From Candidatus Hydrogenedentota bacterium (GTDB lineage Bacteria; Hydrogenedentota; Hydrogenedentia; Hydrogenedentales; JAGMZX01): DNA of 64,000 nt. Position numbers and translations under genes: made by a program. The notes beneath the pieces are model-generated. The model saw only the letters and a program-made list of their open reading frames with translations, had not been told where the DNA came from and made no database searches. Positions 1-53,082 of the stretch are shown here, one piece after another. Numbering within the stretch: the first letter of the stretch is position 1; the number at the start of each line of letters is the position of its first letter. The stretch is from the NCBI GenBank assembly GCA_029556545.1, contig JAKQEQ010000086.1:23182-87181 (forward strand), written 5' to 3'.

Positions 1-2
1 AC

Positions 3-104
3 TGCTACCCGAGCGCGGCCGTATCCCGTAAGCTGTTACGCATGAACGGTTTCCGGATGGCGCCGCGGCGGCACGCGCACGTTGCCGCGAACAAGAACTC
101 CTGA
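3..104 (+). CDS. 3' end of an upstream gene (partial, unidentified)
   Basis: The frame is open from base 3 to a TGA at 102-104 and would encode about 33 residues ending in HVAANKNS. The stop is directly followed by the hemY ATG, the usual spacing inside an operon. The fragment is too short to assign to a family. A haem-pathway gene is a natural guess because of hemY, but nothing in the residues shows it. The open frame could also be chance in GC-rich DNA. Confidence 0.3.
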   Translation, partial: CYPSAAVSRKLLRMNGFRMAPRRHAHVAANKNS

Positions 105-1505
105 ATGCGTGACGAAACGGACATCCTGATCCTTGGGGCGGGCATGACGGGCCTGTGCGCGGCGCATTACGCGGTCGAGCTGTTTGGCCGCGACCGGATA
201 CTGGTCGTCGATGCGGCGGATGCGCCGGGCGGTACGGCCCGCACGGACCGTGTGGACGGCTTCACCATCGAGTGGGGACCGAACGGATTCCTGGACAAGG
301 AACCGAAGACGTTGGAATGGATGGCGGACCTCGGCCTGGAAAACGAGCTTGTGCGCGTGAACGAAGCGGCGGCGCACCGGTTCATTCTCCGGGGCGGGCG
401 GTTGCACGAGGTCAAGCCGCCACCCGGGTTCCTGGTCTCGCCGCTGCTCTCGGTGCGTGGGCGGGCGCGTCTGCTGTGCGAACCGCTGATTCCGGGTAGA
501 CGGGACGACGCGCCGGAGTCCATTTGGGATTTCGCGGCGCGGCGCATCGGCCGCGAGGCGGCGGACATTCTGGTCAGCCCGATGGTCACGGGCATCTTCG
601 GGGGCGATGCGAAGCAATTGAGCCTCGAACACTGCTTTCCGCGCATGGCGGAGTTGGAGCGGACCTACGGCGGGCTGTTCAAGGCGATGCGCGCGCTGCG
701 CAAGAGCGGTGCGTCGGCCATGGGGCCTTCCGGCACGCTTACCAGCCTGCGGGACGGCATCGGCGGCGTGGCGGAGGCGGTGCAGGCACGGCTCGGGGAC
801 CGCATGCGGTTCGGCGTACAAGTCACGGGCATTGCGCCGCTGCCGGACGGCGGATTTCGGGTCGATACGGCGGGGTCGAGAATGAGCCCTCACCCTCACC
901 CGCTCCCGCGGGAAGAGGGAATCACGGCGCGTAACGTGATCGTGGCGCTGCCCGCGTATGGGGCGGCGGGGTGCTGCGCCGCGTTCGGCAGTCAACTCAC
1001 CGCGGCGCTTGAAGGCATCCGCTACGCGGGCATCACGGTTGTATCGGCGGGGTACCGGCGGGATCAGGTGGGCCACGACTTGAACGGTTTCGGTTTTCTC
1101 GTGCCGCGCACGGAGGGCAAGCGACTGCTCGGGTGCCTCTGGGACTCGACGCTGTTTCCGGGGCGCGCGCCGGAGGAACATGTCCTGCTACGGGCGATGT
1201 ACGGGGGCTACTCGGACCCGGAGGCCGTCGGGCTGAGCGACGGCGAACTGCTCGAATACCTGCGGCGCGAGGTGCATCCTCTCCTGCGCATCTCCGGCGA
1301 TCCCGAACTACTCCGCATCTACCGGCATCCGCGCGGCATCCCGCAATACCTCCTCGGGCACGAGGCGCGCCTGCGCGCCGTCGAGGCCGCGGAAACGCGT
1401 TTTCCGGGCCTCATTTTCGCCGGAAACGCCTACCGAGGCATCGGCTTGAACGACTGCGTGCTGTCCGCGCTGCGCGCCGTTGCGCGATTGGAACCGCCGG
1501 GTTGA
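105..1505 (+). CDS. hemY: protoporphyrinogen / coproporphyrinogen oxidase, HemY type
   Basis: FAD-dependent oxidase of late haem biosynthesis, 466 aa, the usual size for the HemY family. The N-terminal FAD-binding motif GAGMTGL is at residues 11-17. It is followed by the family block EWGPNGFLDKEP near residue 64 and the C-terminal flavin-contacting block FAGNAYRGIGLNDCV near residue 440. The ATG follows the stop of the preceding frame directly, which suggests an operon. Odd feature: residues about 262-272 (PHPHPLPREEG) are encoded by a 33-nt palindromic repeat at 887-919, inserted in frame in a surface-type segment before the conserved NVIVALPA strand. Whether the substrate is protoporphyrinogen or coproporphyrinogen cannot be told from sequence alone. 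Confidence 0.88.
   Translation: MRDETDILILGAGMTGLCAAHYAVELFGRDRILVVDAADAPGGTARTDRVDGFTIEWGPNGFLDKEPKTLEWMADLGLENELVRVNEAAAHRFILRGGRLHEVKPPPGFLVSPLLSVRGRARLLCEPLIPGRRDDAPESIWDFAARRIGREAADILVSPMVTGIFGGDAKQLSLEHCFPRMAELERTYGGLFKAMRALRKSGASAMGPSGTLTSLRDGIGGVAEAVQARLGDRMRFGVQVTGIAPLPDGGFRVDTAGSRMSPHPHPLPREEGITARNVIVALPAYGAAGCCAAFGSQLTAALEGIRYAGITVVSAGYRRDQVGHDLNGFGFLVPRTEGKRLLGCLWDSTLFPGRAPEEHVLLRAMYGGYSDPEAVGLSDGELLEYLRREVHPLLRISGDPELLRIYRHPRGIPQYLLGHEARLRAVEAAETRFPGLIFAGNAYRGIGLNDCVLSALRAVARLEPPG
887..919 (+). repeat. 33-nt dispersed palindromic repeat, copy 1 (in frame inside hemY)
   Basis: The element runs from CCCTCACCC to GGGAAGAGGG. A second copy of exactly the same length lies at 54516-54548 inside murF, with 29 of 33 positions identical; mismatches are at element positions 10, 12, 16 and 22. 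It is 11 codons long, so insertion preserves the reading frame. Its 3' half can fold back on itself (CTCCCGCGGGAAGAG). Similar CCCTCACCC...GGGAGAGGG elements are familiar to me as intergenic REP-like repeats in many bacteria. Confidence 0.8.
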
Positions 1506-1555
1506 GCGGCGTCCTTTCTTGTTTCGGCGGCCATGCCGCGCGGCGTTCAACGCGG

Positions 1556-1585
1556 TTGCCCGTTGGGGTGCGGGGGCACTATACT
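1556..1585 (+). promoter_or_regulatory. probable sigma70 promoter of lolCD
   Basis: TTGCCC at 1556-1561 and TATACT at 1580-1585 are separated by 18 nt. They lie about 40 nt upstream of the lolC ATG at 1626. The -10 is good (5 of 6) and the -35 is moderate. The position between hemY and lolC fits a separate transcription unit. Confidence 0.45.
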
Positions 1586-1625
1586 CCGTTCTCGACCGGA
1601 GCCTCCGGCGCAATTCCCGGGGAGT

Positions 1626-2918
1626 ATGCACCTCGTGCGATTTGAGTTGTTTGTCGCGGCGCGCTACCTGCGCAGCAAACGCCGCAATCGCTTCGTCAGC
1701 CTGATCGCGATCATTTCGGTGGCGGGCGTGTGCGTGGGCGTTATGGCGCTTATCGTGGTCATGAGCGTCATGACCGGATTCGACATCGCGCTGCGCGACG
1801 CCATCATCGGGAACCGCGCCCATCTTACCGTGCTGCCCAGTTTCGGCGGCCGCCTCGAAGACCCCGACCAGGCCATCGCGCGCCTGCGCGCCGTCGCGCC
1901 CGAGATCGTGGCGGCGGGCCCGCTGGCGCAGGTCGAGGCGCTGATCACCCACGACCAGAACTCGACCGGTGCGTACATCCTCGGCGTGGACCCGGTCCGG
2001 GAGCAGGAAATCACGATGCTCTCGGAGAACCTGACCACCCAGGGCGGGCGCAAGTATGGCGCGGGCGCGTTGCCGGGCGAGAAGGAGATCGTGCTGGGGT
2101 ACCGGCTAGCGCAGCGCCTTCTCGGCGCGCACTACGCGGACCCGAACCTGATGATCGGCCGGCGGGTGACCGTCACGACGGCGCGGCAAACCCTGACCCC
2201 GCTCGGGCCGCGCAGGGGCAGCCAGATTTGGCTGCGTGTCAGCGGCATCTCGCAGGCGAAGATGTCCGAGTTCGACACGTTGTATGCGTTCGTGGACATT
2301 CCGACCGCGCAGATGCTCACCGGCGAAAGCGGCGTGGACGGCATCCACATGAAGCTGCGCGACCCGTTCCTCGCCGAGACGGTGAAGCGCCGCATCAACG
2401 AGGATACGGACCTGCCCTATCAAGCCATCACGTGGTACGACAGTCAGGCCGAGTTTTTCGAGGCGCTCTACCAGGAAAAGCTGGCCATGTTCATCATCCT
2501 CGCGTTCATCATTCTGGTCGCGGCATTCAACATCACCAGCACGCTGATCATGGTCGTGATGGAGAAGCGGCGCGACATCGGCATCCTGCGCACGATCGGC
2601 ACGAGCACGCGATCCATATTTCAATTGTTCATCTTCGAGGGACTGATGATCGGCCTGACGGGCACCGTCGCCGGGCTGATTCTCGGCACGCTGTTCGCCC
2701 ACAACATCAACCCGATCATGGTGTTCATCGCGAAAGCGATCGGCTGGGACATCTTCAACAGCACGATCTATTACTTCGACGGCGTCCCGGTGGCGGTCAT
2801 GCCGGGGGACATTTTCTGGGTGTGCGTGTCGGCGGTCATCCTGACGTTGATCTCGACCCTGTATCCGGCGTGGAGCGCGGTGCGCGTCGACCCGGTGGAT
2901 GCCTTGCGCTATGAATAA
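1626..2918 (+). CDS. lolC: lipoprotein-releasing ABC transporter permease LolC/LolE
   Basis: Inner-membrane permease that extracts mature lipoproteins from the inner membrane and hands them to LolA. The frame is open from 1533, but the ATG at 1626 is preferred: it has a close GGGGAG ribosome site and gives the family N-terminus HLVRFELFVAARYLRSKRRN. Length is 430 aa, close to the usual 400-415. A first membrane helix lies around residues 22-47, followed by a large periplasmic domain. Three more helices lie in the last third, with the FtsX-type coupling segment EKRRDIGILRTIG after the second helix. The stop overlaps the lolD start by 8 nt, as expected for a co-translated LolCD pair. A single permease gene suggests a LolC2D2 homodimer arrangement rather than LolCDE. 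Confidence 0.9.
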   Translation: MHLVRFELFVAARYLRSKRRNRFVSLIAIISVAGVCVGVMALIVVMSVMTGFDIALRDAIIGNRAHLTVLPSFGGRLEDPDQAIARLRAVAPEIVAAGPLAQVEALITHDQNSTGAYILGVDPVREQEITMLSENLTTQGGRKYGAGALPGEKEIVLGYRLAQRLLGAHYADPNLMIGRRVTVTTARQTLTPLGPRRGSQIWLRVSGISQAKMSEFDTLYAFVDIPTAQMLTGESGVDGIHMKLRDPFLAETVKRRINEDTDLPYQAITWYDSQAEFFEALYQEKLAMFIILAFIILVAAFNITSTLIMVVMEKRRDIGILRTIGTSTRSIFQLFIFEGLMIGLTGTVAGLILGTLFAHNINPIMVFIAKAIGWDIFNSTIYYFDGVPVAVMPGDIFWVCVSAVILTLISTLYPAWSAVRVDPVDALRYE

Positions 2919-3624
2919 CGTGCTTGCATGCAAAGACGTGGTAAAGACGTTCCGCGACGGCGCGCGCGAGTTGCGCATCCTGTGCGGCGTGGACCTCGAG
3001 GTGCGCGAGGGCGAGTCGCTGGCGATCAGCGGGCCCTCGGGCGTGGGCAAGAGCACGCTCCTGCACATCCTGGGCACGCTCGATCGCCCTACAAGCGGCG
3101 ACGTGTTCTTCCGCGGCGCGTCTCTGGCAAGAATGAGCCGCAGCGCCGTCAACCGCATCCGCAACGAGGACATCGGCTTCGTATTCCAGTTCTACCACTT
3201 GCTGCCCGAGTTCACGGCGCTCGAAAACGTCATGATGCCCGCGCTCTGCAAGGGCGCCGCGCGCGGGGTGTGCCACGACCGCGCCGCGGAGCTTCTCGGG
3301 AAGGTCGGGCTCGCGGACCGCGTGTCGCATAAGCCGGGCAAGCTCAGCGGCGGCGAGCAACAGCGCGTCGCCATCGCCCGGGCTCTTTACAACCGGCCGA
3401 GCGTCGTACTCGGCGATGAGCCGACCGGCAACCTCGACGAGCATACGGGCGCGGGGATAATCGAACTGCTGCTGGACCTGAACCGTTCCGAAGGCGTAAC
3501 GCTGGTCTTCGTCACCCACGACGAGGCGCTGGCGCGACGCGCCCACCGCTGGGTGCACCTGCACGAAGGAAGAGCGTACCCGCGCGGCGAAACGCCGGAC
3601 CTCGGGAACGCGGGCGTCGATTAG
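2911..3624 (+). CDS. lolD: lipoprotein-releasing ABC transporter ATPase LolD
   Basis: ATPase partner of LolC, 237 aa. Walker A is GPSGVGKST at residues 41-49, the signature is LSGGEQQRVAIARAL, and Walker B is VVLGDEPTGNLD followed by the switch-region FVTHD. The ATG at 2911 lies inside the end of lolC; an in-frame ATG 12 nt upstream exists but would lengthen the overlap. The LolD/MacB-like subfamily is supported by the adjacent FtsX-type permease. The gene converges on the sulfatase gene, the two stop codons overlapping by a few bases, so no room remains for a terminator between them. Confidence 0.93.
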   Translation: MNNVLACKDVVKTFRDGARELRILCGVDLEVREGESLAISGPSGVGKSTLLHILGTLDRPTSGDVFFRGASLARMSRSAVNRIRNEDIGFVFQFYHLLPEFTALENVMMPALCKGAARGVCHDRAAELLGKVGLADRVSHKPGKLSGGEQQRVAIARALYNRPSVVLGDEPTGNLDEHTGAGIIELLLDLNRSEGVTLVFVTHDEALARRAHRWVHLHEGRAYPRGETPDLGNAGVD

Positions 3625-51597: not shown

Positions 51598-53082
51598 TCA
51601 CCGCAGTTTGAGGGTGCCCAGGCTCATGATCGCGAAAAGGATCGCGATGATATAGAAGCGCATCGTCACTTTCGTCTCGGACCATCCGAGCAACTCGAAG
51701 TGATGGTGCAACGGGGCCATGCGAAAGACGCGACGGCCCGTCAGCTTGAACGAGGCCACTTGTATCAGCACGCTGAGCGCTTCGAGCACAAACATCCCCG
51801 CAACAATGGGCAGCAGCAGTTCCTGTTTCGTCAGGATAGCCATCGTGCCGAGCGCGCCGCCGAGCGCCAGCGATCCCGTGTCCCCCATGAAGACTTCCGC
51901 CGGATGGGCGTTGAACCAGAGAAACCCGAGCCCCGCCCCGAGCAGGGTCGCGCCAAACACGAACAGCTCGCTGGCCTCGGGCACGTAGGTCAGATAGAGA
52001 TAATGAGACCAGTCAGACCGGCTGACGATATAGGCAATTCCCGTATAGGCCATGAGCGAGATAATCGAAACCCCAGCGGCAAGGCCGTCGAGGCCGTCGG
52101 TAAGGTTGACGGCGTTCGAGGCGGCGACCAGGATAAAGATGACCAGGACAACGTAGAACGCGCCGAGCGGGATGAGCAGGTTCTTGAAGCCTGGGACATT
52201 GACCTTGGTGTGCAGGTCCGTGCCGCTTCCGACGATATGCACGGGCAGGGCGCTTTCGAGGAGCATACGGTTGCGGCGCAGGCGTTCCGGCCGTTCGAGC
52301 GTCTCGGGATCGCGCGCGACAAGCCCCGTCAACTCGACCGGCATCTCGTAGCCGGCCCACACCGCCGGGTCGTAGAAATCGGCGCGGTCCAGGAGCCGGT
52401 CAAGACCCCGGATTATGGCCCTTTCCTGCGTATCGGTCATGCGGTCCTTGCCGACGGCGGTCCGCACCGCTTCCTGGGCCTCTTCGTCCAGCCACTCCCA
52501 CACCCGGCGATCCGGTGAGTCCGCCGGCGCGACCGCCCCCGCCGCGAGAACATTGACGAGCCCGGGCCAGTCGCGGATATCGTTCGGGGCCACGTCCATG
52601 GCGCCAACGGTAATCGGGAAGACAATCAGGTAGCCGCCAAGCATCGCGCCGGTGAGTATCTGCCCGATGAACTTGGCGCGCGCGCTGAGGCCCTCGTTGC
52701 GTTTGCGCCGCAACTTGATGAAGTCGTCCAGAAAGCCGACCGCACCCAAGGCGCAGAAGACCAACACGGCGAGCCACAGCAGGCGATTCGTCAGACGGCC
52801 CCAGAACAGGAGGGCGGCCACGGCCGCAAGGATAATCATGGCGCCGCCCATCGTGGGCGTGCCGGCCTTTCCCTTGTGGAGTTCGTGCAAGGCCGCTACG
52901 TGCTCTTTGCGGATGTACTGCCCAATCTTGAGGGACGTCAACAGACGGATGATGCCCGGCCCGAACAGAAGACAGAAAAGGAACGCGGTCACAGCGGCGC
53001 CGCCCGCGCGCACCGTGTGGTAGGTAAACACGTTGAACGGCCCGAAAACGGGCACGAGTTTGAGGGCCAGGTAGTACAGCAT
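51598..53082 (-). CDS. mraY: phospho-MurNAc-pentapeptide transferase MraY with large periplasmic insertion
   Basis: 494 aa from the ATG at 53082, which aligns MLYYLALKLVPVFGPFNVFTY with the family N-terminus; an ATG at 53124 is in frame. Catalytic landmarks are intact: KAGTPTMGG near residue 72, the Asp pair FLDDFIK (119-120), NAVNLTDGLDGLA near residue 323, GFLWFNAHPAEVFMGDTGSLALGG, and MAPLHHHFE. The family is usually 320-360 aa. Here about 135 hydrophilic residues (about 162-298) lie between helix 4 and helix 5, a loop that faces the periplasm. The insert is rich in Asp, Glu and Arg, has no Cys and no evident domain. It forms lipid I from UDP-MurNAc-pentapeptide and undecaprenyl phosphate. 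Confidence 0.94.
   Translation of the reverse strand: MLYYLALKLVPVFGPFNVFTYHTVRAGGAAVTAFLFCLLFGPGIIRLLTSLKIGQYIRKEHVAALHELHKGKAGTPTMGGAMIILAAVAALLFWGRLTNRLLWLAVLVFCALGAVGFLDDFIKLRRKRNEGLSARAKFIGQILTGAMLGGYLIVFPITVGAMDVAPNDIRDWPGLVNVLAAGAVAPADSPDRRVWEWLDEEAQEAVRTAVGKDRMTDTQERAIIRGLDRLLDRADFYDPAVWAGYEMPVELTGLVARDPETLERPERLRRNRMLLESALPVHIVGSGTDLHTKVNVPGFKNLLIPLGAFYVVLVIFILVAASNAVNLTDGLDGLAAGVSIISLMAYTGIAYIVSRSDWSHYLYLTYVPEASELFVFGATLLGAGLGFLWFNAHPAEVFMGDTGSLALGGALGTMAILTKQELLLPIVAGMFVLEALSVLIQVASFKLTGRRVFRMAPLHHHFELLGWSETKVTMRFYIIAILFAIMSLGTLKLR

Follow-up and report, generated by a model that had tools for sequence, protein, structure and literature searches.

A predicted six-helix domain inserted in MraY of Hydrogenedentota has homologues in LptA and dozens of unrelated bacterial proteins

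The window analyzed here, a stretch of 64,000 nucleotides from a Candidatus Hydrogenedentota bacterium, carries on its minus strand an mraY gene with an inserted domain (51598..53082; ATG start at 53082, stop ending at 51598), which encodes a protein of 494 amino acids. As read from the translations, the gene lies in a dcw cluster with the order rsmH, ftsL-like, PBP, murE, murF, mraY, murD, ftsW, murG. The product scored 361 bits with the mraY equivalog model TIGR00445 (cut-off 192), the match falling in two stretches with the insert between them. Using phmmer, it also matched solved MraY structures (8g01, 4j72); this alignment was broken at query residues 137-151 and picked up again at 278-302. 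The fold of the protein matches solved MraY as well. A preliminary description of the locus had held that the catalytic motifs are intact, and indeed D119, D120, D329, D332, D401 and H459-461 are invariant among 21 MraY relatives. They belong to the catalytic Asp pair D119-D120 (52723..52728, minus strand, like all features of this gene), the NAVNLTDGLDG motif (residues 323-333, 52084..52116; mostly invariant in the relatives' alignment), the GDTGS motif (residues 400-404, 51871..51885; invariant) and the HHH motif (residues 459-461, 51700..51708; invariant). By equivalog model and catalytic residues the protein is MraY, with transferase activity predicted.

When the protein was aligned with MraY from 11 further lineages, a segment of about 130 amino acids proved to be extra (residues ~157-289, 52216..52614, minus strand). 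This segment sits on the tip of the periplasmic loop that joins TM4 to TM5, after TM4 and ahead of the conserved vPgFK strand before TM5. Within it, profiles and AlphaFold2 models (of MraY and of the domain alone) delimited what we term the plug-in domain, i.e., the part with homologues elsewhere (residues ~163-287, 52222..52596, minus strand). The MraY crystal structure shows a β-hairpin on the periplasmic side, where the N- and C-terminus also lie (PMC4790310), and the TM4-TM5 loop is assigned to the periplasm because of this position of the N-terminus together with the helix count. A hydrophilic insert in the periplasmic loop linking helix 4 to helix 5 had been proposed earlier, and the alignment, TIGR00445 and phmmer agree with that placement; the insert is real, but rather than residues 162-298, as first given, it occupies a segment slightly upstream. 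MraY catalyses its reaction at the cytoplasmic face, where its catalytic residues work. The insert lies opposite to that face, so that contact with substrate is not expected, and the best reading is that it takes no part in catalysis. Nucleoside antibiotics also bind MraY from the cytoplasmic face, as seen in MraY-inhibitor structures, which makes the suggested hindrance of these compounds by the insert unlikely. The MraY of a Bacteroidia MAG (L036, 3001-4341) also has extra residues in the TM4-TM5 loop, PDZ-like by eye (AGFRKGDKLLRIEQEPF...); their sequence is unrelated to the plug-in domain, with no match to it by hmmsearch --max at E-values up to 100.

The named relatives of this MraY, at 64-66% identity, are from Candidatus Hydrogenedentota. 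As the preliminary description had recommended, MraY was aligned across this phylum, using 68 genomes, all of one order, of which 66 contained MraY. All 62 genomes whose MraY match runs across the site as a single alignment had the insert, and none of these copies contained a stop codon, which rules out a sequencing artefact. There was no sign of it in 78 non-Hydrogenedentota MraY loci: a profile search with filters off, covering those MraY frames that were readable in the loci, recovered it from Hydrogenedentota only. In the closest pairs the dN/dS ratio of the insert was 0.20-0.36 (distant pairs, which are near saturation, were left out), and the median dN was 0.83 for the insert versus 0.19 for the MraY core. 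These values are best read as an insert kept under purifying selection, with a rate of evolution about four times that of the enzyme core.

Structure prediction of the insert alone, also recommended earlier, gave a confident fold: with 50 homologues, AlphaFold2 returned a model of six helices with a pLDDT of 94.3 and a pTM of 0.86. In MraY numbering these helices are residues 172-184, 190-197, 200-209, 217-231, 249-256 and 264-278. The domain-alone model has just two bridge residues, 7 close to one end and 121 close to the other, and the ends of the domain therefore appear to pair. The domain is thus predicted to be a self-folding unit of ~125 residues and six helices, with adjacent N- and C-termini. 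In a model of full MraY the insert was one of the most confidently predicted regions, with a pLDDT of about 80-92 for most of its length, while much of the transmembrane core was poorly modelled because the alignment was shallow. No convincing relative of the fold was found in the PDB (best Foldseek E 2.7, best VIA Z 2.3), which leaves a new fold unproven, or among viral structure models (best Foldseek E for the domain 1.8).

Residues 167-285 of the MraY query also matched a second gene of the same genome (L003:973-1851), which encodes an LptA-like protein and is flanked by an LptC-like gene and lptB (TIGR04406, 354 bits). The LptA label is based on the place of the gene in the operon and on an LptD_N match that falls below threshold (E 0.017); long repeat forms in relatives exceed the cut-off. 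Its last ~115 residues are the plug-in domain. The MraY insert matched this C-terminus by BLASTP with an E-value of 2e-9 (single comparison), and a reciprocal genome-wide search with the LptA-like copy recovered the MraY insert at 1e-11. A third copy in this genome occupies a loop of a Na+/solute symporter (L116), in the relatives of which the PF00474 match is split. A profile search over the phylum found from one to four copies per genome. The host is nearly always MraY, and in most genomes the C-terminus of LptA as well; in some, a copy lies just past the signal peptide of an outer-membrane β-barrel protein, as read from the sequence, and in some the further hosts are an ABC permease or LptB. 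A few Hydrogenedentota genomes encode long LptA/LptC-repeat proteins with the domain at the end (L150-L153; open frames of 657-834 amino acids in the fetched stretches). Two AAA_15/DUF3696 ATPases of one Hydrogenedentota genus (L164, L165) contain a split, degenerate copy with weak E-values.

Relationships between the copies were examined by HHalign, using alignments made separately for each host. MraY matched LptA with a probability of 100% over 121 columns, RpoB with 97%, OadB with 97-98% and GH129 with 99%; with LptA, RpoB, SSS, OadB, GH129, OMP and others together, the probabilities were 94-100%, mostly over 87-121 columns. When single sequences were matched to the RpoB or GH129 profiles, some pairs scored low. 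Controls using reversed alignments or a host segment reached at most 4%, save for one self-reverse match of 35 columns. Five residues (D168, N228, N271, R272 and L274 in MraY numbering) are conserved over 15 host families. By these sequence comparisons, the MraY insert shares ancestry with a domain that LptA and dozens of unrelated proteins contain. In a tree the copies fall into two subtypes, one with a DxxDW...SP pattern (MraY, LptA, LptB, OMP, GH129) and one with DPxSxYL (RpoB, OadB, LptE, SSS, CBM), and they group mostly by host, so that each host lineage appears to go back largely to a single capture with later descent.

Outside Hydrogenedentota, where many of the genomes sampled are MAGs, the distribution is patchy. 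The domain occurred in 14 genomes in a sample of 386 (~318 from other phyla); its hosts there, in Pfam terms, are RpoB, FtsW, oxaloacetate decarboxylase beta (OadB), GntP, MFS, LptE, an AMPK1_CBM protein, a PorV-like protein with several tandem copies, and GH129. The RpoB copy is present throughout one family (f239, about 50 genomes) of the order of genome G375, and for the sister families f245 and f246 there is no domain among the matches listed; the insertion opens a gap in the alignment with solved RpoB from query residue 436 to 574. Two further phylum samples had the domain sporadically, in 3/39 and 7/296 genomes. It was found in all ten genomes from the phylum of G197, and in 66/294 from that of G340, with up to 13 copies per genome. 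Four high-copy genomes add SecA, LspA, COX3, PBP2, two ABC permeases with two copies each, SNF, SSF, NupC, AI-2E, DctM, a cytosine/purine permease, ExbB, band-7, a solute-binding protein, a CHASE2 cyclase, a kinase-FHA protein and a RAMP protein. SecA aligns with solved SecA up to query residue 547 and then from 733, the domain being at 621-736. By our count the hosts represent about 36 families in Pfam terms. Most are envelope proteins; RpoB, SecA, DndB and a UvrD-like helicase are cytosolic. In a crude positive-inside analysis, 18 of the 26 domain stretches that were scored came out as external, but FtsW was miscalled, and a preference for the periplasmic side is only suggestive. Two PorV-like outer-membrane proteins (L219, L220) have several tandem or partial copies of both subtypes. 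In another sequence (L351, G1007:C492:1-5800), an ORF at 1-3120 on the minus strand has a SecA-like N-terminus with the domain, and the SecA DEAD segment appears again only at residue ~1012; there may be a second large insert, possibly an intein, between the two. A tblastn search of plasmids and phages with two domain copies gave no match.

No Pfam model corresponds to the domain, and comparison with NCBIfam and PHROGs gave nothing above noise. A weak NCBIfam match to the BTA121 lipoprotein domain (E 0.09) and a match to a penicillin-amidase protein (E 0.03) were left out of the interpretation. No PDB sequence matches it, and a full-text literature search found no description, although it may have a name in InterPro, UniProt or AlphaFold DB. 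The domain is therefore apparently undescribed and unnamed.

In the four high-copy genomes, 24 of 39 copies had their nearest copy in the same genome, versus 9.2 when labels were shuffled. However, in a control preserving composition only, the nearest copy was in the same genome for 14.5 ± 3.6 copies, and the highest of 60 runs reached 25. Because amino-acid composition alone can reach 25, spread of the domain within genomes is suggested by these protein comparisons but not proven. Terminal inverted repeats were not detected in 107 copies (p = 0.85), nor was a palindrome at the DNA level, where the best arms were only 12 nt at 83%. Comparison of the copies of the four genomes by blastn yielded mainly short matches and one tandem pair at 76%, with no near-identical DNA copies other than partial tandem ones. 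With no inverted repeats, palindrome or near-identical copies, no active element was caught.

The explanation we favor, with a probability of about 0.6, is that repeated in-frame insertions dispersed the plug-in domain and that it persists as a tolerated passenger. Its adjacent termini would let it enter a surface loop, or join an end, of almost any protein, and a domain with side-by-side ends would leave the host fold undisturbed. MraY would have captured it on a single occasion that predates the radiation of the sampled Hydrogenedentota, and passed it on by vertical descent since, with catalysis going on around the insert. Copies in general would come from repeated in-frame insertion, mostly out of copies of the same lineage, and the passenger would be mainly tolerated, being retained because misfolding or imprecise loss harms. 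Three observations weigh against this account. The composition control, which reached 25 same-genome nearest copies, leaves spread within genomes suggestive; the lack of terminal inverted repeats, of a palindrome and of near-identical DNA copies other than partial tandem ones means that no active element was caught; and the conservation of polar D168, N228, N271 and R272 in 15 host families may reflect a function in common instead of the needs of folding. Those same polar positions favor the main rival, i.e., that the domain is a binding module common to MraY and LptA, whose copies would bind one periplasmic partner or each other and so couple lipid I/II synthesis with lipopolysaccharide transport, other lineages reusing the module on envelope proteins. 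The presence of both copies in most Hydrogenedentota genomes, the independent recurrence of LptA, LptB, LptC-like and LptE hosts, and the prevalence of envelope proteins among hosts are all consistent with it. However, the MraY and LptA copies gave no signal of co-evolution (partial Mantel r = 0.15, p = 0.16, 14 genomes), and the cytosolic hosts fit no single compartment; we regard this rival as rather unlikely.

The preliminary description had sought the role of the insert in MraY itself. A loop expansion of one lineage, serving to bind a flippase or the divisome, would agree with its fixation in MraY of Hydrogenedentota, any resemblance elsewhere being helical convergence. A domain homologous across dozens of unrelated proteins cannot, however, have an explanation specific to MraY: the profile matches to unrelated hosts are full-length while reversed controls fail, and with reciprocal genome-wide detection, BLASTP and HHalign already contradicting it, we consider this idea most improbable. 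Equally slight are the chances that the insert is intein-like and is excised from the translated protein, leaving an ordinary MraY. Like inteins, which occur in polymerases and helicases, the plug-in domain is found sporadically inside essential, highly conserved enzymes (RpoB, SecA, MraY). Unlike them, it has no intein motifs, and no Pfam intein/Hint model matched MraY at E-values up to 1; its junction residues vary, with no conserved nucleophile or Asn, and neither its position at the end of LptA and other proteins nor its tandem copies fit splicing.

Among described systems, the Rickettsia palindromic elements and their Wolbachia equivalents are in-frame selfish coding insertions, consisting of palindromic DNA repeats of several codons (PMC2996958). 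Like them, the plug-in domain lies in frame in genes for many unrelated proteins, housekeeping ones included, at tolerated sites. However, it is a folded unit of ~125 residues without a palindrome, it occurs in several phyla, and its copies are related in protein but hardly in DNA, so that they form no DNA repeat family. The palindromic amphipathic repeat elements (PARCEL) consist of 25-residue units repeated in tandem, in ORFs to which no function is assigned (PMC2996958). These resemble the plug-in domain in being modular coding sequence with a punctate distribution, within-genome dispersal and an association with envelope proteins, whereas the plug-in domain is a single globular unit inside known enzymes; there was no Pfam match to DUF285 (PARCEL) in MraY or the other host proteins scanned.

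More tentatively, and with the odds somewhat against it, the globular domain may act as an element that is mobile as coding sequence, copied in frame into unrelated, even essential, proteins of a genome, persisting because its side-by-side termini make it nearly invisible to the host fold, and crossing phyla; it would be the first such element made of a complete folded domain. An apparently unnamed domain lies inside highly conserved bacterial enzymes (RpoB, SecA, MraY, FtsW, LspA and PBP2), and its copies have probably been recorded so far protein by protein, as lineage-specific inserts. They provide a natural experiment showing where the loops of essential proteins tolerate an entire domain, how domains travel, and whether protein modules can be selfish. 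Should the domain bind a single partner instead, cell-wall synthesis, lipopolysaccharide export, secretion and transport would be connected through it in large uncultured phyla.
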